Of a DNA stretch of 6,768 nucleotides, positions 1 to 6,768 are shown in pieces. The notes beneath the pieces were generated by a model. It was not told the origin of the DNA. It ran no database searches and worked only from the letters and a program-made list of their open reading frames with translations. The DNA comes from Actinomycetota bacterium. GTDB lineage: Bacteria; Actinomycetota; Actinomycetes; Nanopelagicales; Nanopelagicaceae. The stretch's first letter is position 1. The number at the start of each line of letters is the position of its first letter. The translations under genes were made by a program, and so were the position numbers. The stretch covers positions 1-6,768 of the forward strand of contig WLCR01000060.1 of assembly GCA_009705235.1 (NCBI GenBank), in the 5' to 3' direction.

Positions 1-62
1 AGGGCGATTACATTCACACACACAACATGAGGAGTTATCGATGGGAAGCAAGCCGCGCTTAA
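1..62 (+). CDS. suyA: SuyA, (2R)-sulfolactate sulfo-lyase small subunit (3' end only)
   Basis: Only the 3' tip is present. Starting at base 3, the frame reads GDYIHTHNMRSYRWEASRA and stops at TAA 60-62. The GD(Y/W)(I/V)HTHN block is the characteristic end of the SAF-type small domain of the UxaA/altronate dehydratase family, whose stand-alone form is SuyA. The gene runs past the start codon of suyB and overlaps it by 22 nt in a different frame, so the two subunits should be translationally coupled. SuyA and SuyB together form the iron-dependent lyase that splits (2R)-3-sulfolactate into pyruvate and sulfite. The alternative is the N-terminal subunit of another split UxaA-type dehydratase; the downstream slcC and comC genes make SuyA the better call. 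The body of the gene lies before the window. Confidence 0.72.
   Translation, partial: GDYIHTHNMRSYRWEASRA
29..34 (+). promoter_or_regulatory. Shine-Dalgarno of suyB, inside suyA
   Basis: GAGGAG lies six bases before the ATG at 41, a good ribosome binding site. It is embedded in the last codons of suyA, so ribosomes finishing suyA pass over it. It supports 41 as the suyB start. Confidence 0.75.
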
Positions 63-1207
63 CTGGATACCGCCGCGAAAACGGCACTATGGGTATCCGC
101 AATCACGTAATTATTTTGCCTCTCGATGACCTTTCAAATGCAGCTGCAGAAGCTGTAGCAAAAGTGATTCCAGGCACGATGGCACTACCGCATGCCTTTG
201 GCCGTCTGCAGTTTGGTGAAGATCTTCAATTAACTTTTGACACATTAATCGGAACTGGCGTAAACGCTAACGTTGCCGCAGTTGTTGTTATTGGTATCGA
301 ACCAAAGTGGACACAACGCGTTGCTGACGGAATTGCAAAGACTGGAAAGCCAGTTGCAGCATTTTCAATCGAAGGCAAGGGTGACCTACAAGTTATTCAG
401 GAAGCTAGTCGTGTAGCAGCAATGTTCCTTCAAGATGCATCAGGTCTTGTTCGCACAGAAGCTGAAATGGGCGACATGATCATGTCAATCAAGTGCGGAG
501 AATCAGATACAACATCTGGTCTTGGTTCTTGCCCAACAACTTCAGAAGCAGTAGACCGTTGGGTTGAAGCTGGTGGAACTGTTTTCTTTGGTGAAACTTC
601 AGAGCTGACAGGTGGAGAACATCTAATTGCAGAACGATGCATTGATGCAGCAACTCGTGATTTGTTCCAGCTTACATATGACAACTACATCAAGGTTATT
701 GAAGCCACTGGTGCAAACCTGCTTGGTTCACAGCCAACTCAAGGAAATATTGCTGGTGGCCTAACGACTATTGAAGAAAAGGCACTTGGAAACATTGCAA
801 AGACTGGATCAGTTCCAGTTGTTGGTGTTCTAAAGCCTGCAGAAATGCCTAATCCAGCTAACCCTGGTTTGTATTTTATGGATTCTTCATCGGCTGCAGC
901 AGAGTGCGTAACTCTGATGGCCGCTGGTGGCGCAGTAATCCACTTGTTCCCAACAGGACAAGGAAACGTTATCGGCAACCCAATCGTTCCGGTGTTGAAG
1001 CTAACTGCAAATATCAAGACCGCGAAGTCAATGTCTGAGCACATCGATCTTGATGTTTCTGGAGTCCTTCGTTATGAATACGATATGACTAAGGCTGGCG
1101 ACATGATGATGGATGTCATATATGACACTGTTAATGGTCGTCTATGTAAGGCTGAAGTTATGGGCCACCGCGAATTCACATTCACGAAGTTGTACATCTC
1201 TGCCTAA
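41..1207 (+). CDS. suyB: SuyB, (2R)-sulfolactate sulfo-lyase large subunit (UxaA family)
   Basis: This is the 388-residue large catalytic subunit of a UxaA-family lyase, about the usual SuyB length. Visible family blocks are the KCGESDTTSGLGSCPT segment at residues 151-166 with Cys152 and Cys164, FGETSELTGGEHL at 183-195, the GN(I)AGGLTTIEEKALGNIAK(T)G block at 235-256, and the HLFPTGQGNVIGNPIVPVLK block from 301. With SuyA it cleaves the C-S bond of (2R)-3-sulfolactate to pyruvate and sulfite in the cytoplasm. The family also holds altronate and galactarate dehydratases, so the substrate rests on context: a split two-subunit form followed by SlcC-like and ComC-like sulfolactate dehydrogenases and a sulfate/sulfite exporter. 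The ATG at 41 has a good GAGGAG site and overlaps suyA by 22 nt. Its stop TAA shares one base with the slcC start. Confidence 0.88.
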   Translation: MGSKPRLTGYRRENGTMGIRNHVIILPLDDLSNAAAEAVAKVIPGTMALPHAFGRLQFGEDLQLTFDTLIGTGVNANVAAVVVIGIEPKWTQRVADGIAKTGKPVAAFSIEGKGDLQVIQEASRVAAMFLQDASGLVRTEAEMGDMIMSIKCGESDTTSGLGSCPTTSEAVDRWVEAGGTVFFGETSELTGGEHLIAERCIDAATRDLFQLTYDNYIKVIEATGANLLGSQPTQGNIAGGLTTIEEKALGNIAKTGSVPVVGVLKPAEMPNPANPGLYFMDSSSAAAECVTLMAAGGAVIHLFPTGQGNVIGNPIVPVLKLTANIKTAKSMSEHIDLDVSGVLRYEYDMTKAGDMMMDVIYDTVNGRLCKAEVMGHREFTFTKLYISA

Positions 1208-2145
1208 TGATTCTTATCTCTGAAGATGTATGGGGAACTCCCTTCCAAAAACTGGAAGGGAGTTTTCCCATTACTCGTAATGATGATTTGTGGAGTAACC
1301 CTGAAGAACTTAAATCTTCACTAAAAGATGTAACTGCATTAGTAGTTCGCAATAGAACAAAAGTAACTGCAGATGTTATTGCCGCGGCGCCTAAGCTAAA
1401 AGTTATTGCTAGAGCTGGTGTTGGTTTAGACAATATTGACATTAATGCTGCAGATGCTGCAGGTGTAGTAGTAGTTGCAGGTCTTGGTGCCAACGCGGTC
1501 AGCGTTGGTGAATTAACTCTTGGTTTAGCCCTAGCTTTATTAAGAAATGTTCCGGGCCATGATGTGGCAACACGCGACGGTGGATGGGTTCGTACACCTG
1601 GTAGAGAATTGTCAGGACTTACCTGGGGACTACTTGGGTGCGGTGCGACAGGTCTTGCAACGGCAAAGCTTTTGCAAGGCTTCGGATGCCAAGTTGTTGG
1701 ATATGACCCTTACGCAAAGAATCTTTCTGGTGTCGAGCTAACTACATTTGAAGATGTTCTAAAGCGCAGTGATGTAGTAAGTATTCACATGCCTTCAACA
1801 GCAGAAACAAATGGAAGCATTAACGCTGCATCACTTGCTTTGATGAAACCAGATGCGATCATCGTCAATGTTGGCCGTGGCGAAGTGATTAATGAGGCTG
1901 ATTTGATGACAGCCCTGAGGGCTAAAACCATTGCTGGGGCAGCACTTGATGTGCGTGCCCAAGAGCCTCCGGTTAAGGGCGACATGGAAGAGATTCCAAA
2001 CTTGATTCTAACTCCGCATGTGGCTGGCATTACTAAAGAAAGCCAACTGCGAATCAATCAGATTTTGACCTCTAACATTGAATTAGTTCTAAACTCAAAG
2101 CCTGCTACTCACGCAGTGGGGGCTTTAAAGGAAAGTAGCAACTAA
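1207..2145 (+). CDS. slcC: (S)-sulfolactate dehydrogenase SlcC-like, D-isomer-specific 2-hydroxyacid dehydrogenase
   Basis: The 312-residue protein belongs to the D-2-hydroxyacid / phosphoglycerate dehydrogenase superfamily, in the short form without ACT domain. The substrate loop ARAGVGLDNID is at 68-78, the nucleotide motif GCGATG at 144-149, and Asp167 in GYDPY predicts NAD(H) preference. The catalytic triad is Arg224 (NVGRGE), Glu253 (AQEPP) and His271 (TPHVAG). In sulfolactate degraders SlcC oxidises (2S)-3-sulfolactate to 3-sulfopyruvate with NAD+; position between suyB and a comC-like gene supports that role here. Without context it could be taken for a phosphoglycerate or glyoxylate dehydrogenase. 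The start ATG overlaps the suyB stop (TAATG) and has no clear Shine-Dalgarno, so translation probably depends on termination of suyB. The N-terminus (ILISE...) fits the family from the first residues, although codons 9-21 carry a strong hairpin. Confidence 0.8.
   Translation: MILISEDVWGTPFQKLEGSFPITRNDDLWSNPEELKSSLKDVTALVVRNRTKVTADVIAAAPKLKVIARAGVGLDNIDINAADAAGVVVVAGLGANAVSVGELTLGLALALLRNVPGHDVATRDGGWVRTPGRELSGLTWGLLGCGATGLATAKLLQGFGCQVVGYDPYAKNLSGVELTTFEDVLKRSDVVSIHMPSTAETNGSINAASLALMKPDAIIVNVGRGEVINEADLMTALRAKTIAGAALDVRAQEPPVKGDMEEIPNLILTPHVAGITKESQLRINQILTSNIELVLNSKPATHAVGALKESSN
1232..1268 (+). promoter_or_regulatory. strong hairpin within the start of slcC
   Basis: AACTCCCTTCCA at 1236-1247 pairs perfectly with TGGAAGGGAGTT at 1253-1264 around a five-base loop. 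The stem can extend outward through two G-U pairs and two G-C pairs (1232-1235 with 1265-1268), giving about 16 pairs. A short TTTT run (1263-1266) is followed by CCC. The shape resembles an intrinsic terminator, but the U-tract is short and it lies inside coding sequence, so attenuation, RNA processing or stabilisation of the upstream suyAB message are all possible. The pairing is directly visible; its function is inference. Confidence 0.55.
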
Positions 2146-3132
2146 ATGCCTCAGTTAACCGTTGGTGCTGCAATTGTAAAAGCGACCTCCTTGTTAGAAG
2201 CAGCAGGAGTTCCTGCACAAGAGGCAGCAACGACTGCTCGTTGCATAGTTGCAAGTGATCGATGGGGAATTGGCAGTCATGGTTTGATGCGTTTGCCTTT
2301 TTATCTTTCACGTTTACAGGCTGGTGGAATTAAGGCAGATGCAGAGTTGAAGATAGTTACAGATTTACCAAGTCTGGTTGTCTTTGATGGCGATGATGGA
2401 TTAGGTCATTGGCAACTCCAGAAAGCATCAGAAATTGCAGCAGAACGTGCGATGGTAAACGGAATCGCAGCAGTTGGTGTTGGACGCTCTAATCACTGTG
2501 GTGCTTTAGGTATCTATGTATGGCCAATGATTAATCGCGGATTAGTAGGAATTGCATTTAGTACTGGACCAGCCGTTATGCCACCATGGGGTGGAAATAA
2601 AGCTTTACTATCGACTTCTCCAATTGCAGCAGGTATTCCAACAAATCCTCCAACGGTTGTTGATTTAGCAACGAGCGCAGTTGCTCGTGGAAAAATTCAA
2701 GCAAAAGCTCAGGCAGGAGCCGAATTAGAACCTGGTTGGGCATTTACAAAAGATGGCGCACCAACCACAGATGCCAAGGAAGCACTTGCAGGAATGCTTG
2801 CACCATTAGGTGGCGTCAAGGGTTACGCTGTTGCTGTTCTTGTTGAATCACTAACCGGAATGTTGATTGGTCCAACTCTTGCCAAGAATATTCCAGATAT
2901 GTTCGCTGCTAGCCAAGATGCCTTGCCACAACAGATTTCACATTTTGTCATCGCAATCGATGCGGCCAAATTATCTGTTGATGGCGCTAATAATCGCACC
3001 AATGAGTTTGTTTCTGAGGTCGGTGCAGCAGGTGGACGCCTTCCGGGTGCCAACCGCGTTAATCCAGAAAAGCTCAATCTTGATGATGAAATAACCATCA
3101 CCGATCAAGTCTTTTCACAACTGGGTTTCTAG
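2146..3132 (+). CDS. comC: (R)-sulfolactate dehydrogenase ComC-like (malate/L-lactate dehydrogenase family)
   Basis: The 328-residue protein is a member of the Ldh_2 (malate/L-lactate/ureidoglycolate dehydrogenase) family, which is unrelated to classical Rossmann dehydrogenases. Family signatures are SDRWGIGSHGLMRLP at 37-51 with His45, the VGRSNHCGALG block around 112-122 with His117, the STSP segment at 156-159, and DLATSAVARGKI at 173-184. ComC enzymes act on (2R)-3-sulfolactate and 3-sulfopyruvate, usually with NADP(H). Paired with SlcC, it would convert (S)- to (R)-sulfolactate, the isomer that SuyAB cleaves. It starts directly after the slcC TAA with no gap. An AAAGGA at 2127-2132 is 13 bases from the ATG, farther than usual, so coupling to slcC is likely. 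Substrate is inferred from context; related enzymes use malate, lactate or ureidoglycolate. Confidence 0.8.
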   Translation: MPQLTVGAAIVKATSLLEAAGVPAQEAATTARCIVASDRWGIGSHGLMRLPFYLSRLQAGGIKADAELKIVTDLPSLVVFDGDDGLGHWQLQKASEIAAERAMVNGIAAVGVGRSNHCGALGIYVWPMINRGLVGIAFSTGPAVMPPWGGNKALLSTSPIAAGIPTNPPTVVDLATSAVARGKIQAKAQAGAELEPGWAFTKDGAPTTDAKEALAGMLAPLGGVKGYAVAVLVESLTGMLIGPTLAKNIPDMFAASQDALPQQISHFVIAIDAAKLSVDGANNRTNEFVSEVGAAGGRLPGANRVNPEKLNLDDEITITDQVFSQLGF

Positions 3133-4125
3133 ATGGTTAAAAGCTACGCACCAGGCTTTGGTTTAATTGGCTTATTGGTTGCAATTGCATTTCAAATTAA
3201 TCAAATGCAATCGGCAATTAGTCCACTTGCATTGTGCGTTGCTTTTGGATTTATGGTTGCAAATTTTGCACAGTGGCCAGCATTTGCAGCTCCTGCTACA
3301 AAGATTTCAAGCAAGACTATTATGCGTATTGGTGTTGCATTGTTAGGCGCACAAGTAAGTGTTGTTTCTCTAAAGGAAATTGGCTTAAAGGGCGTGATCA
3401 CAGTTGTGATCGTTGTAACCTTTACGATTTTTGGAATTCTCGGACTGTCTAAGTTGTTTAAGATGTCTGGAGAACTTGGACTTCTGATTGGAGTTGGATT
3501 TGGTGTTTGCGGTGCAACCGCTGTTGCTGCCATCAAGCCACAAACTCGCGCTACTGAAGAAGAGACTTCTTATGCAATCGGTCTGATCTCTTTGTGCGGG
3601 ACACTTTCTATTTTCATGTTGCCATTGATTGGCCATGCGCTCAACCTAGATACTCGAGAGTTCGGTGCATGGGCAGGTGCAGCAGTACATGATGTCGGAC
3701 AGGTAGTAGCAACAGCATCTGTATGGGGTGATGATGCAGACAAGTACGCAATCGTTGTAAAACTTTCGCGCGTTTGCTTACTTGCTCCAATTGTTTTGAT
3801 TTTATCTATTCGACACCGTCGTTGGTTAACCTCGCAAGGTAAGCAAGAGGTTGCAACTGCGAAGGTTCCTTTGATTCCATACTTTGTTCTTGGATTTATC
3901 GCCGTTGCAACACTAAATAACACCGTTCAAATTAGTGAAGGTTTACATGACGCGATCGTTTTGATCAGCAAGTTGATGTTGGGAGCTGGTTTAGTTGCGC
4001 TGGGTTCAGGAGTTAGATGGAAGGCGATCCGGGCCATCGGCCCTCGCCCAATGGCAATGGGAATGCTGGCCTGGGTGATTGTGGCTGGTGTTGCCTTGGC
4101 TGCCGTCCAAATAACCGGACTTTGA
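3133..4125 (+). CDS. yeiH: YeiH-family putative sulfate/sulfite exporter
   Basis: This 330-residue integral membrane protein has about ten hydrophobic segments, roughly at 9-25, 31-48, 62-80, 86-108, 114-134, 145-168, 205-226, 247-263, 272-293 and 305-326. Family landmarks are CGATAVAA at 126-133, GAWAGAAVHDVGQVVA at 178-193, and KLSRV at 210-214, as in the UPF0324/YeiH (PF03601) family. Members beside sulfonate lyase genes are regarded as exporters of the sulfate or sulfite released; as I recall, SuyZ and CuyZ were proposed on that basis. Here it begins directly after the comC stop with no gap or Shine-Dalgarno, so it appears to be the last gene of the suy operon and would export sulfite from SuyAB. 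Its TGA stop (4123-4125) lies inside the -35 element of the next promoter. The family assignment is firm; the transported ion is inference. Confidence 0.85.
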   Translation: MVKSYAPGFGLIGLLVAIAFQINQMQSAISPLALCVAFGFMVANFAQWPAFAAPATKISSKTIMRIGVALLGAQVSVVSLKEIGLKGVITVVIVVTFTIFGILGLSKLFKMSGELGLLIGVGFGVCGATAVAAIKPQTRATEEETSYAIGLISLCGTLSIFMLPLIGHALNLDTREFGAWAGAAVHDVGQVVATASVWGDDADKYAIVVKLSRVCLLAPIVLILSIRHRRWLTSQGKQEVATAKVPLIPYFVLGFIAVATLNNTVQISEGLHDAIVLISKLMLGAGLVALGSGVRWKAIRAIGPRPMAMGMLAWVIVAGVALAAVQITGL

Positions 4126-4147
4126 CATATACCCCCAGGGGTATGAT
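4122..4147 (+). promoter_or_regulatory. promoter of the sulfur-response operon
   Basis: A perfect TTGACA at 4122-4127 overlaps the stop codon of the exporter gene. A TATGAT hexamer lies at 4142-4147, giving a short 14-base spacer. A slipped -10 (TGATAA 4144-4149, spacer 16, or GATAAG 4145-4150, spacer 17) is a more usual spacing with weaker matches. The spacer is filled by a palindrome, so a repressor bound there would block RNA polymerase. It would drive the Cys-rich protein, cstR and the CoA-disulfide reductase. Confidence 0.6.
4129..4144. promoter_or_regulatory. CsoR/CstR-type operator palindrome
   Basis: The sequence is ATACCCC-CA-GGGGTAT, two perfect 7-bp inverted arms around a two-base centre. 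A C-rich half followed by a G-rich half with A/T ends is the known architecture of CsoR/CstR-family operators. A member of that family is encoded 156 bases further on, so autoregulation is the natural reading. The site lies between the promoter hexamers. Confidence 0.8.
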
Positions 4148-4184
4148 AAGTTTACCTTAGGCACTAAATCTAAGGAGATAAACC

Positions 4185-4298
4185 ATGTGTTCACCAGTAA
4201 CGTGCAATGTATGTAAGAAATTCACTTGGTCAGGATGCGGTCAACATATTGAAGAAGCGCTGGCTGGAGTCGCTGAAGCAGATCGTTGTAAGTGCTAA
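4185..4298 (+). CDS. 37-residue Cys-rich miniprotein A, function unknown
   Basis: A short gene with a strong AAGGAG (4172-4177) seven bases before its ATG encodes MC.PVTCNVC.. then WSGCGQH and a DRCKC end. Cysteines are at 2, 7, 10, 18, 35 and 37, with His21. The CxxC, GCGxH and CxC elements suggest a small metal-binding or thiol/persulfide-carrying fold. It is the first gene of the operon controlled by the CsoR/CstR-type palindrome and ends two bases before the regulator's ATG. It matches a second gene at 6233-6403 at 23 of 37 positions, including every cysteine except Cys37, which argues strongly that it is a real protein. From memory, similar short proteins occur unannotated in many bacteria and some fungi. 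I know of no function and assign none. Confidence 0.85.
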   Translation: MCSPVTCNVCKKFTWSGCGQHIEEALAGVAEADRCKC

Positions 4299-4300
4299 TT

Positions 4301-4588
4301 ATGGCTACTAAAAAAATTGCTCATGTTCTCTCAGATGAAGAACAGATTGAAGCAATATCAAAGAGAATTAAGCGTGCCCAAGGTCAACTAGGCGCTGTTG
4401 CTCGCATGCTCGAAGAAGGTCGCAACTGCGAAGAGATTGTGACTCAAATGTCTGCTGTCTCAAAAGCTGTAAATACAGCTGCCTTTACGTTGATTTCAGC
4501 AAGCCTTAAAGAGTGCATTGTCGAAGGTAAGAACAACTCTGAAGCCGTTACCGCTCAGCTTCAAAAACTATTTTTAAGTCTGGCATAG
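4301..4588 (+). CDS. cstR: CsoR-family repressor, CstR-like persulfide sensor
   Basis: This 95-residue all-helical repressor is of the CsoR/RcnR/FrmR family (DUF156). The typical RIKRAQGQLGAVARMLEEGR helix occupies 22-41, followed by NCEEIVTQMSAVSKAVN. Copper-sensing CsoR uses Cys, then His 25 residues later and Cys 29 residues later. Here Cys43 and Cys72 keep the 29-residue spacing, but the His position is Ser68. Two cysteines without the histidine is the pattern of CstR, which forms di-, tri- or tetrasulfide crosslinks with sulfane sulfur and releases DNA. The neighbouring rhodanese/CoA-disulfide reductase agrees. The likely operator is the palindrome at 4129-4144. I chose the ATG at 4301, two bases after the preceding stop, over an in-frame GTG at 4292 that overlaps the upstream gene. 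There is no clear Shine-Dalgarno, so coupling is likely. A FrmR-like or other thiol sensor remains possible. Confidence 0.82.
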   Translation: MATKKIAHVLSDEEQIEAISKRIKRAQGQLGAVARMLEEGRNCEEIVTQMSAVSKAVNTAAFTLISASLKECIVEGKNNSEAVTAQLQKLFLSLA

Positions 4589-4590
4589 GG

Positions 4591-6240
4591 ATGCGCGTAA
4601 TCATTATTGGAGGCGTTGCTGGGGGAATGTCAGCGGCAACACGTTTGCGTCGCCTCGATGAATCCGCGGAGATTATTGTTCTTGAGAAGAGCGGGCACGT
4701 TTCATATGCAAACTGTGGGTTGCCTTACTACGTTGGTGGAGTAATTGAAGAGGAAAAAGATCTGTTGTTGCAGACTCCAGCCAGCCTTCACGCACGTTTT
4801 CGATTAGATGTTCGAGTAAGTACCGAAGTCCTTGCGATTAATCCAAGTAAAAAGATGGTTGCTGTAAAGAATTTGATAACTGGCGAAACCTCTGAGCTGG
4901 ATTATGACAAGTTGATTCTTAGTCCAGGGGCGTCACCTGTAGTTCCGCCGATTCCAGGAATTGAACGTGGAATGACTTTACGCACCGTAGAAGATGTAGA
5001 GAAAATTGCAGCAAGTGTTGGCAAGAAGCCAGCCAGTGCTCTAGTTATCGGTGGCGGATTTATTGGTGTTGAAATCGCTGAAAATCTTGTTCATCGCAAT
5101 ATCCCAACCGCCCTTGTTGAAGCAACAGATCAAGTGCTAATGCCATTAGATCCTGAGCTTGCAACCTTAGTTGCACAGGAAATGCGCTCACACGGCGTTG
5201 ATCTTCGTCTTGGCTCCAGCGTTGTAAAGATTTCATCTGACTCCGTGGAACTAGCCAATGGTGAGGTTTTACCTGCCGAAATTGTTATCTTGGCAATCGG
5301 TGTTCGTCCAGAGATTGGATTAGCAAAGGCAGCAGGCCTTGACATCGGTACACGTAATGGAATTAAAGTCGATGATTTTAATCGCACCAGTAATCTTGAT
5401 ATCTACGCAGTAGGAGATGCAGCTGAAAAGACCGATGCGCTTGATGGAAATGCAACTCTTGTCCCCTTGGCAAACCTTGCTAACCGCCATGGTCGTGTAG
5501 TTGCAGATCACATATGTGGCTTAAAAGTGCGACCGGTAAAAACTATTGGCACCGCCATCGTTAAAGTTTTTGATTTAATGATTGCAACAACTGGATGGAA
5601 TGAGAAGAGATTGATGGCGTCAGATCGCCCTCATCAGGCTATCCACATCCACCCTAATTCACATGCTGGTTATTACCCAGATGCAAAGCAAATGACTTTG
5701 AAATTAATCTTTGATCCAAAGAGTGGTGAAATACTTGGAGCACAGGGTGTCGGAATAGAAGGCGTTGATAAACGCATTGATGTGATTGCAACTGCAATGC
5801 GCGGAGAGATCACTGCACCAGAGCTAGCCGATTTGGAACTTGCATATGCGCCACCATTTGGTTCAGCCAAGGACCCTGTAAACATGTTGGGGTATGTAGC
5901 TGAAAATGTCTTGTCAGGTGTATCAAAGGTTGCGCAGTGGCATGAGATTGATGAGTATCGTGAAAAAGGTTACGAGCTGCTCGATGTTCGATCTGAGGCT
6001 GAATGTGGTCGAGGGATTATTCCTGGAGCTATCAACATTCCAGTTGATGAAATCCGTGATCGGCAATCAGAATTAAAGAACAAAAATCTTTTGGTTAATT
6101 GCCAAGTCGGACTGCGTGGCCACACGGGCTCGATGCTTCTAAGAGAACTTGGATTTAATGCAGTAAATCTTGATGGTGGTTATCTAACGTGGATCAATTC
6201 GCCTGCTGGAGCTAATGAGAAAAGAGAAGTGAATGTGTAG
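4591..6240 (+). CDS. CoA-disulfide reductase fused to rhodanese domain (NADH-dependent persulfide reductase type)
   Basis: The 549-residue flavoprotein combines a pyridine-nucleotide disulfide oxidoreductase of the CoADR class with a C-terminal rhodanese domain. The FAD motif GGVAGGMSAA is at 7-16, the single redox cysteine Cys42 sits in SYANCGLPYY, the NAD(P)H motif GGGFIGVE is at 154-161, and IYAVGDAAE at 271-279 is the second FAD contact. The dimerisation region carries HAGYYPDAK (359-366) and AYAPPFGSAKDPVN (418-431), with the two conserved tyrosines of CoADR. The rhodanese domain spans about 450-538 with LLDVRS at 463-468 and active-site loop CQVGLRG, Cys504. Fused enzymes of this kind reduce CoA-persulfides and polysulfides with NAD(P)H and release sulfide. 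It starts two bases after cstR and would act in the cytoplasm as effector of the persulfide response. Sulfur respiration is an alternative role elsewhere in the family. Confidence 0.9.
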   Translation: MRVIIIGGVAGGMSAATRLRRLDESAEIIVLEKSGHVSYANCGLPYYVGGVIEEEKDLLLQTPASLHARFRLDVRVSTEVLAINPSKKMVAVKNLITGETSELDYDKLILSPGASPVVPPIPGIERGMTLRTVEDVEKIAASVGKKPASALVIGGGFIGVEIAENLVHRNIPTALVEATDQVLMPLDPELATLVAQEMRSHGVDLRLGSSVVKISSDSVELANGEVLPAEIVILAIGVRPEIGLAKAAGLDIGTRNGIKVDDFNRTSNLDIYAVGDAAEKTDALDGNATLVPLANLANRHGRVVADHICGLKVRPVKTIGTAIVKVFDLMIATTGWNEKRLMASDRPHQAIHIHPNSHAGYYPDAKQMTLKLIFDPKSGEILGAQGVGIEGVDKRIDVIATAMRGEITAPELADLELAYAPPFGSAKDPVNMLGYVAENVLSGVSKVAQWHEIDEYREKGYELLDVRSEAECGRGIIPGAINIPVDEIRDRQSELKNKNLLVNCQVGLRGHTGSMLLRELGFNAVNLDGGYLTWINSPAGANEKREVNV

Positions 6241-6403
6241 CAGAACTACCTGTCGTAAATGTGGAAAGCCTTCATGGTCAGGTTGTGGCCAGCACATTGA
6301 AATTGCGCTCAAAGGTGTGACTAAAAAGGATCGTTGCCAGGGCCATGCCAACGACCCCAAGGGGCCTGGCCTTTTCAGCAAAATTTTCGGTAAAAAGGGT
6401 TAA
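6233..6403 (+). CDS. 56-residue Cys-rich miniprotein B, paralogue of miniprotein A
   Basis: The ATG at 6233 overlaps the end of the reductase gene by 8 nt, with a modest GAGAAG at 6224-6229. The product begins MC.RTTCRKCGK, then WSGCGQHIE and KDRCQGH. It shares 23 of its first 37 positions with miniprotein A, keeping Cys2, Cys7, Cys10, Cys18, Cys35 and His21. The CxC end of A is replaced by CxxH (Cys35, His38). An extra tail follows, running DPKGPG and then GLFSKIFGKKG, a short basic and hydrophobic stretch that could be amphipathic. Location at the end of the cstR-reductase operon, with its twin at the head, ties both to the same sulfur or thiol stress response. A metal site or persulfide carrier is conceivable, but I recognise no characterised homologue. 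Confidence 0.83.
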   Translation: MCSRTTCRKCGKPSWSGCGQHIEIALKGVTKKDRCQGHANDPKGPGLFSKIFGKKG

Positions 6404-6542: not shown

Positions 6543-6567
6543 CTCAACATAAGAGAAAAGGACAATG

Positions 6568-6768
6568 ATGTCAGATCTAAATAATGGCATTTCCCGCCGC
6601 TCAGTACTTAAGGGTGCTGCAGTTGGTGGTCTCGGACTAGCAGCAGGTGGATCACTTCTTGCTGGTTGCGGAGATAAAGCAACAGGACCTCTTGCATACG
6701 GTGCACGTTCCGTAGATGCGGGTCCAACAGCACAGAACGAAGCTTTGATTGCTGCATACACAGCAAAG
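6568..6768 (+). CDS. Tat-exported lipoprotein, probable solute-binding protein (5' part)
   Basis: Only the first 67 codons are present; the gene continues beyond the window. The N-terminus has a twin-arginine motif SRRSVLK (about residues 8-14), a hydrophobic stretch rich in Gly, Ala and Leu, and a lipobox LLAGC ending at about residue 35. The product should cross the membrane by Tat, be lipidated on that cysteine and stay anchored outside. The following QNEALIAAYTAK resembles the first helix of extracellular ABC-transporter solute-binding proteins, where a periplasmic-type ligand domain starts. AAGGA (6558-6562) is five bases from the ATG at 6568 and two from another ATG at 6565, so I chose 6568; the difference is one Met. 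It seems to begin a new transcription unit. Substrate cannot be told from this fragment; sugars or sulfonates are both open. Confidence 0.78.
   Translation, partial: MSDLNNGISRRSVLKGAAVGGLGLAAGGSLLAGCGDKATGPLAYGARSVDAGPTAQNEALIAAYTAK

Follow-up and report, generated by a model that had tools for sequence, protein, structure and literature searches.

What role do two very small, cysteine-rich proteins play at the two ends of an operon that otherwise encodes a CsoR-family repressor and a CoA-disulfide-reductase-like (CoADR-like) flavoprotein with a rhodanese domain? The question is raised by a 6,768-nucleotide (nt) stretch of an actinobacterial genome (contig WLCR01000060.1, here called the window), in which miniprotein A (37 amino acids, aa) opens the operon and miniprotein B (56 aa) closes it. 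The two genes very probably belong to a persulfide regulon. Our tentative reading of their products is that they are metal-thiolate partner proteins of this CstR-type regulon, likely relaying sulfane sulfur. Membership in the regulon is well supported; the chemistry is what we infer. What the sequence shows directly is the family with its conserved residues, the match to the operator, the order of the operon, the statistics on neighbours and the residues of the sensor. The operon and its immediate surroundings, with coordinates as positions in the window and all operon genes on the plus strand, are as follows.

3133..4125, plus strand: YeiH-family membrane protein (PF03601, 236.4 bits against a cutoff of 24.5)
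4122..4127, plus strand: TTGACA, a -35-like hexamer abutting the operator (promoter inferred)
4129..4144, plus strand: operator-like palindrome ATACCCCCAGGGGTAT, an exact match to ATACCn6GGTAT
4172..4177, plus strand: AAGGAG, Shine-Dalgarno-like, a good ribosome-binding site ahead of miniprotein A
4185..4298, plus strand: miniprotein A, 37 aa, ATG start, C-terminal RCKC, tailless
4301..4588, plus strand: CsoR-family repressor, 95 aa from ATG (PF02583, E 8.4e-21, 74.6 bits against a cutoff of 22.8)
4591..6240, plus strand: CoADR-like flavoprotein with C-terminal rhodanese domain, 549 aa (PF07992, PF02852, PF00581)
6233..6403, plus strand: miniprotein B, 56 aa, C-x-G-H variant, basic tail GLFSKIFGKKG

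The genes are tightly packed, with 2 bp between A and the repressor gene, 2 bp between the repressor and the CoADR-like gene, and an 8-nt overlap of the start of B with the end of the CoADR-like gene. These coordinates bear out the first-pass annotation, made from the letters alone, in placing A and B on either side of the repressor and the CoADR-like/rhodanese gene. BLASTP aligns A to B with 23 of 36 residues identical (E 3e-16); at position 37 A has C and B has G, which gives 23 of 37, and both proteins retain C2, C7, C10, C18, C35 and H21, just as that annotation had described (23/37 identities, with five cysteines and His21 conserved). Its claim of purifying constraint also stands, as the nonsynonymous rate (dN) lies well below the synonymous rate (dS) wherever dS can be computed in A orthologues: five of these from the genus give dN of 0.05-0.16, with dS of 0.40-0.93 in three pairs and saturated in 7 of 10. 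Five B sequences give dN of 0.05-0.18, with dS of 1.08 in one pair and saturated in 9 of 10. Because dN is low relative to dS, both genes are very likely translated; conservation rules out A and B as spurious open reading frames (ORFs). Searches of Pfam and NCBIfam at E up to 1 yield no family for either protein, and B, the only one of the two run against PDB sequences, finds nothing there better than E 7.9.

A profile search, proposed in the first-pass annotation, does uncover a large family. Genome searches were restricted to Actinomycetota. B has 65 close homologues in a homologue search, and a profile built from a 38-member alignment matches 5,558 proteins at E <= 0.001, the best 120 of which contain no Pfam domain. 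In whole genomes, 32 of 60 have a match to A, and 49 of 396 sampled over the phylum have one to the profile (own genome included in both counts; one of the 49 matches is weak). Alignments of 38, 97 and 133 sequences show no variation at M1, C2, C7, C10, G17, C18, G19, H21 and C35, an invariance partly built in by a selection pattern that required most of the Cys and the His, but not G19 or C35. The numbered members (P identifiers) were chosen as proteins starting MC and no longer than 62 aa (151 of 179 proteins); one named locus, L046, failed the selection pattern and was excluded. W15 and R34 are conserved too, besides G17, G19, H21 and the cysteines. A short basic amphipathic tail, recognised by a loose pattern, is present in 112 of 158 members and absent in A and its orthologues. 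Tailed and short tailless members occur together in one cluster in the window's genus and in L055, L060, L085 and L196. One family member comes from a phage record of human fecal origin that is unverified (MT835623.1, locus L204), and one confirmed family locus (L205) lies on a contig of the IMG/VR viral collection.

The end of the core is informative about chemistry. After C35 the motif is C-x-C in 61 and C-x2-H in 96 of 158 distinct sequences, gathered by the selection described above, with the His one place later in the remaining 1 (a 159th sequence, cut by a contig end, is outside this count). A swap of Cys and His at one position is usual for metal ligands, and because it occurs here at the last ligand position, proteins of the A/B family probably bind metal, likely zinc. 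AlphaFold2 models of B (97 sequences) and of member P0066 (133 sequences) have the same topology, with mean predicted local distance difference test (pLDDT) scores of 73.4 and 73.6: strands at 3-6 and 13-16, a helix from 19, a low-confidence linker and a short helix at 48-52. In the models C7-x2-C10 sits between the strands, at the hairpin turn, and C18-x2-H21 at the start of the helix.

Part of the case for the regulon comes from gene neighbourhoods. Two sets of loci were surveyed. The phylum sample holds 52 loci, that is, 52 of the 53 strong places in the 396 genomes with the window's own genome excluded (the 53rd shares a locus in G095, and a weak match in G426 was left out). The named set holds 79 of the best 80 loci, or 78 once L054, a duplicate of L128, is removed, for 130 distinct loci in total. 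Gene calling shows CsoR, CoADR (with or without rhodanese), metallo-beta-lactamase-rhodanese, TauE, thioredoxin and rhodanese families recurring within 1 kb of the miniprotein gene, and a CsoR, CoADR, metallo-beta-lactamase/rhodanese, TauE, thioredoxin or rhodanese gene is counted below as a module gene. Neighbours were located with tblastn, the queries being as many as eight seeds for each family and the CsoR, CoADR and YeiH proteins of the window (YeiH, also probed, added no locus), and were identified by Pfam on one representative each, except CoADR, which was recognised by similarity to the window's protein.

Of the 52 phylum-sample loci, 24 have a module gene within 1 kb of the miniprotein gene, whereas only 3 of 256 genes lying over 4 kb from it in those loci have such a neighbour; for the named loci the figures are 58 of 78 against 34 of 463. 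Between 4 and 8 kb, the bins contain a module gene in 0, 0, 1 and 0 of 52 loci, and in 6, 4, 1 and 2 of 79. By family, the numbers of loci with a member within 1 kb and beyond 4 kb (n = 130) are 34 and 7 for CsoR, 29 and 1 for CoADR, 19 and 1 for metallo-beta-lactamase-rhodanese, 18 and 0 for TauE, 7 and 0 for thioredoxin, and 7 and 3 for rhodanese. DUF302 genes also occur near the family (L052, L131, L167 and others), about as often as at a distance: a member lies within 1 kb in 6 loci and beyond 4 kb in 5 (n = 130).

Plasmids repeat the pattern. The family is matched in 77 plasmid records, 8 of which were examined; module genes lie within 4 kb in 7 of the 8 regions (one region is without), and the exact operator stands upstream of the family gene or its operon in 7 of 8. 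On Curtobacterium pC1a a family gene without annotation is flanked by a "metal-sensitive transcriptional regulator" on one side and a rhodanese-DsrE-TauE set on the other, with trxA and a metallo-beta-lactamase (MBL) hydrolase close by. The laboratory actinobacterium Rhodococcus jostii RHA1 carries the set (pRHL3, L198). The family gene is unannotated in 37 of the 40 plasmid records listed, by a gene table known to be incomplete. The sulfur-related setting, first noticed in a single operon, thus extends to many loci of the phylum and to plasmids.

The operator would tie the miniprotein genes to the repressor. Passages of PMC7533328 give ATACCn6GGTAT as the 16-bp site of ScCsoR, the sulfane-sulfur repressor of Streptomyces coelicolor. 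The window's own 1.02-Mb assembly (72% complete) contains this site in exact form once, at 4129-4144, 40 bases before A. Among distinct loci, an exact site occurs within 300 bp upstream of 55 of 130 family genes (9 of 52 in the phylum sample and 46 of 78 in the named set) vs 7 of 1,100 genes more than 4 kb away, and it begins 28-106 bases before the start codon in 49 of the 55 cases. Sixteen of the 55 have no module gene within 1 kb by tblastn. Among 20 loci of the window's genus (some on short contigs, and two from one genome), every one of the 7 with a CsoR gene has the operator ahead of the miniprotein, and none of the 13 lacking CsoR does.

The sensor itself argues for sulfur rather than copper. 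A His ligand in CsoR-family proteins marks copper sensors. The window's repressor has C43, S68 and C72, that is, two conserved cysteines and no His four residues before the second, and it scores 47.8 bits against the NCBIfam RicR model, whose cutoff is 175. The 57 CsoR genes called no more than 2.5 kb from a family member (56 after duplicate removal) all encode C-[A/G/S/N]-C and none has the His; a profile search among called genes found no additional CsoR-like gene near family members. Because every nearby CsoR protein has these residues and lacks the copper-ligand His, persulfide is the likely input of these repressors, as judged from their residues, and the persulfide type assigned to the window's sensor in the first-pass annotation holds. 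The Cys pair of Staphylococcus aureus CstR is C31/C60, as given in passages of PMC5480029.

How the miniproteins might work in such a regulon can be sketched. Persulfide formed on C43/C72 of the sensor would free the operator at 4129-4144 and switch on the A-CsoR-CoADR/rhodanese-B operon. Up to seven candidate ligands, C7-x2-C10, C18-x2-H21, C35-x-C37 or C35-x2-H38, plus C2, would form a metal-thiolate core, whose free or exchangeable thiols could accept sulfane sulfur from the rhodanese domain or present it. The persulfide relay view has this core taking up sulfane sulfur and the short amphipathic tail helping to pass it on, either to enzymes with a rhodanese domain or to an exporter of sulfite. 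The tail could be a docking or membrane-facing element, and because B has it and A does not, the two copies may share out the work. A metal-thiolate sulfur carrier is the most economical reading of a persulfide setting, a ligand swap, and partners that bear rhodanese domains or export sulfite. Sulfur relay as such is possible and somewhat doubtful; that the miniproteins are dedicated actinobacterial protein persulfide relays, with tailed and tailless copies paired, is slightly less probable.

A number of results weigh against a sulfur-carrying partner of the regulon, or narrow its reach. The co-occurrence with CsoR or rhodanese genes suggested by the first-pass annotation is strong in the window's class (a module gene in 13 of 19 sampled loci; a gene or the operator in 15 of 19) and weak in other classes (11 of 33 by either count). 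Half of the phylum sample (26 of 52 loci) lacks both the exact operator, which occurs in just nine phylum-sample loci, and a module gene within 1 kb; outside the window's class 22 of 33 loci are unlinked, with mixed neighbours (by inspection only). The family's task may be wider, in thiol or redox stress generally, or it may have joined the sulfur regulon within a single class. At least 589 matches, ordered by similarity to a single sequence, stand behind the named loci, which are the best 80 of them and include many close relatives; all counts are of loci and do not represent independent events. In the genus, by inspection, some copies adjoin other genes: a quinone-oxidoreductase-like gene with overlapped start in L183 and L191, MFS-like genes in L189 and L192, an ABC-ATPase-like gene in L194 and a YaaA-like gene in L195. 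The operator consensus also resembles copper-sensing CsoR/RicR sites (in passages of PMC7533328), and by itself does not separate persulfide from copper sensors. On the protein side, mean model confidence is just 73, fold searches against PDB give no match better than E 5, and a fusion search, a weak test, yielded two candidates, neither significant, and thus no fusion to rhodanese or any other domain.

The main rival keeps the metal and drops the sulfur transfer: the miniproteins would be zinc buffers or chaperones of the sulfide response, holding zinc while sulfide or persulfide strips other sites. This is unlikely but deserves serious weight, since the Cys/His ligand swap and the zinc-knuckle-like predicted core fit it, sulfide provokes a zinc-limitation response in S. 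aureus (in passages of PMC5480029), and one plasmid carries an ArsR/SmtB regulator and a cation diffusion facilitator within 3 kb of the family gene. The recurrent neighbours, however, are most commonly sulfur-transfer enzymes and exporters, and inspection recognised no zinc-uptake cluster among them. Distinctly less probable is a regulatory adaptor, in which the miniprotein binds the repressor or another operon product and tunes it as an anti-repressor or redox switch. In the window a gap of 2 bp separates A from the CsoR gene that follows, and family members lie directly beside a same-strand CsoR gene in many loci, but the family also stands next to CoADR, dioxygenase, TauE or YeiH genes with no adjacent CsoR.

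RicR controls MymT, and a small Cys-rich protein behind a CsoR-family operator could likewise be a copper metallothionein under a copper-sensing CsoR. The sensor residues make this very improbable (none of the 57 nearby CsoR genes encodes the copper-ligand His), and no copper-ATPase cluster was recognised among recurrent neighbours by inspection, no dedicated search having been made. We reject a MymT-type protein, whose control by a copper-sensing CsoR or RicR is not what is found here. Cys-rich leader peptides are known in mycobacteria, and a short Cys-rich ORF does head this operon, so A could in principle act through its translation, as a cysteine-responsive leader, and not as a protein. 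That is scarcely credible: W15, G17, G19, H21 and R34 are conserved as well as the cysteines; the amino acids are under constraint by dN and dS; B ends its operon; and the gene follows CoADR and CsoR in L064, L093, L098, L102 and L128. The leader peptide too is rejected, as a position upstream of the controlled gene and constraint on Cys codons only are not observed.

The genus relatives of the window show the following arrangements. The order A-CsoR-CoADR-B occurs on one contig in G002, G013 and G020 (where B is cut by the contig end), and on two contigs in G010. A rhodanese-like stretch lies between CsoR and CoADR in L176, L177, L178, L188, L190 and L193; it is absent in the window and in L179. 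In 5 of 20 genus loci (L182 and L184-L187) the miniprotein gene comes straight after YeiH, and the stretch examined has neither CsoR nor the operator; these five loci are a second sulfur link. A quinone-oxidoreductase-like gene lies directly or closely 3' of the miniprotein in L183, L191 and L181 (by inspection). The start of a TAT-signal protein occupies 6565-6768 of the window, 3' of B, and a similar one also follows the miniprotein in L182, L185, L186 and L187.

The genes farther upstream may also concern sulfur. Positions 41-3132 encode a GD_AH protein, a 2-hydroxyacid dehydrogenase and an Ldh_2 protein (Pfam assignments). The best NCBIfam match of the Ldh_2 protein is L-sulfolactate dehydrogenase (NF040650, 201.6 bits, far under the cutoff of 500), and in PDB L-sulfolactate dehydrogenase 2x06 comes third, after a malate/lactate-type entry and a "dehydrogenase" entry; the sole library match of the GD_AH protein is galactarate dehydratase, below cutoff in NCBIfam. 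SuyB, SlcC and ComC form a sulfolactate pathway that releases sulfite (in passages of PMC12421959), and YeiH is required for sulfite resistance in Salmonella (in passages of PMC12880088). By analogy, the SuyB-like, SlcC-like and ComC-like genes at 41-3132, followed by YeiH, are possibly a sulfolactate desulfonation operon that would release sulfite. The set, with YeiH, is kept in several genus relatives. The window's YeiH-family protein scores 172.9 bits against TIGR00698, under its cutoff of 232.6, and its gene's stop overlaps the -35-like hexamer; a promoter scan of the window lists no promoter at the TTGACA next to the operator. The CsoR-family gene has an alternative GTG start at 4292 in the ORF list. 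Its neighbour contains Pyr_redox_2, dimerisation and rhodanese domains by Pfam and scores 444.1 bits against TIGR03385, and because this is below the NCBIfam equivalog cutoff (578.8) we label it CoADR-like.

No described role for A or B emerged from Pfam, NCBIfam or the open-licence papers searched, in agreement with the first-pass annotation. Searches of those papers on CstR/CsoR, persulfide, small proteins and sulfane-sulfur operons brought up none on the family among the papers listed, four family peptide strings were not found, and a search on Nanopelagicales (the host group by guess) listed nothing on the A-CsoR-CoADR-B operon. A family of thousands, lacking a Pfam model, appears to be part of a sulfur-defence regulon in many actinobacteria; the regulon supplies a testable inducer for the miniproteins, and the operon named partner enzymes. 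If sulfane-sulfur relay is true, the pathway, which the papers cited describe in terms of rhodaneses, dioxygenases and low-molecular-weight persulfides, would gain a carrier that is a small protein.

Known systems resemble the window in part. In the predicted models the core would be like the small zinc-knuckle or treble-clef proteins, with C-x2-C at a hairpin turn and C-x2-H at a helix start, but A and B differ from these in having no Pfam, NCBIfam or PDB fold match. Salmonella YeiH is under YeiE control and no miniprotein is mentioned with it in the passages cited (PMC12880088), whereas the window's YeiH gene precedes one. The sulfane-sulfur circuit of S. coelicolor (ScCsoR, ScPDO, a rhodanese and a sulfite transporter) is alike in operator and gene set; its four named genes, in the passages cited of PMC7533328, include no miniprotein, and 11 listed genomes of group g19, which is Streptomyces only by a guess, have no family match. 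The CstR operon of S. aureus (cstR, cstA, cstB, sqr, tauE) has its CsoR-family persulfide sensor, persulfide dioxygenase-sulfurtransferase and TauE matched among the family's neighbours; the passages cited (PMC5480029) name no Cys-rich protein of 37-60 aa, and list unnamed induced "hypothetical" genes. Where that operon has CstA and CstB, the window has its CoADR-like/rhodanese enzyme.

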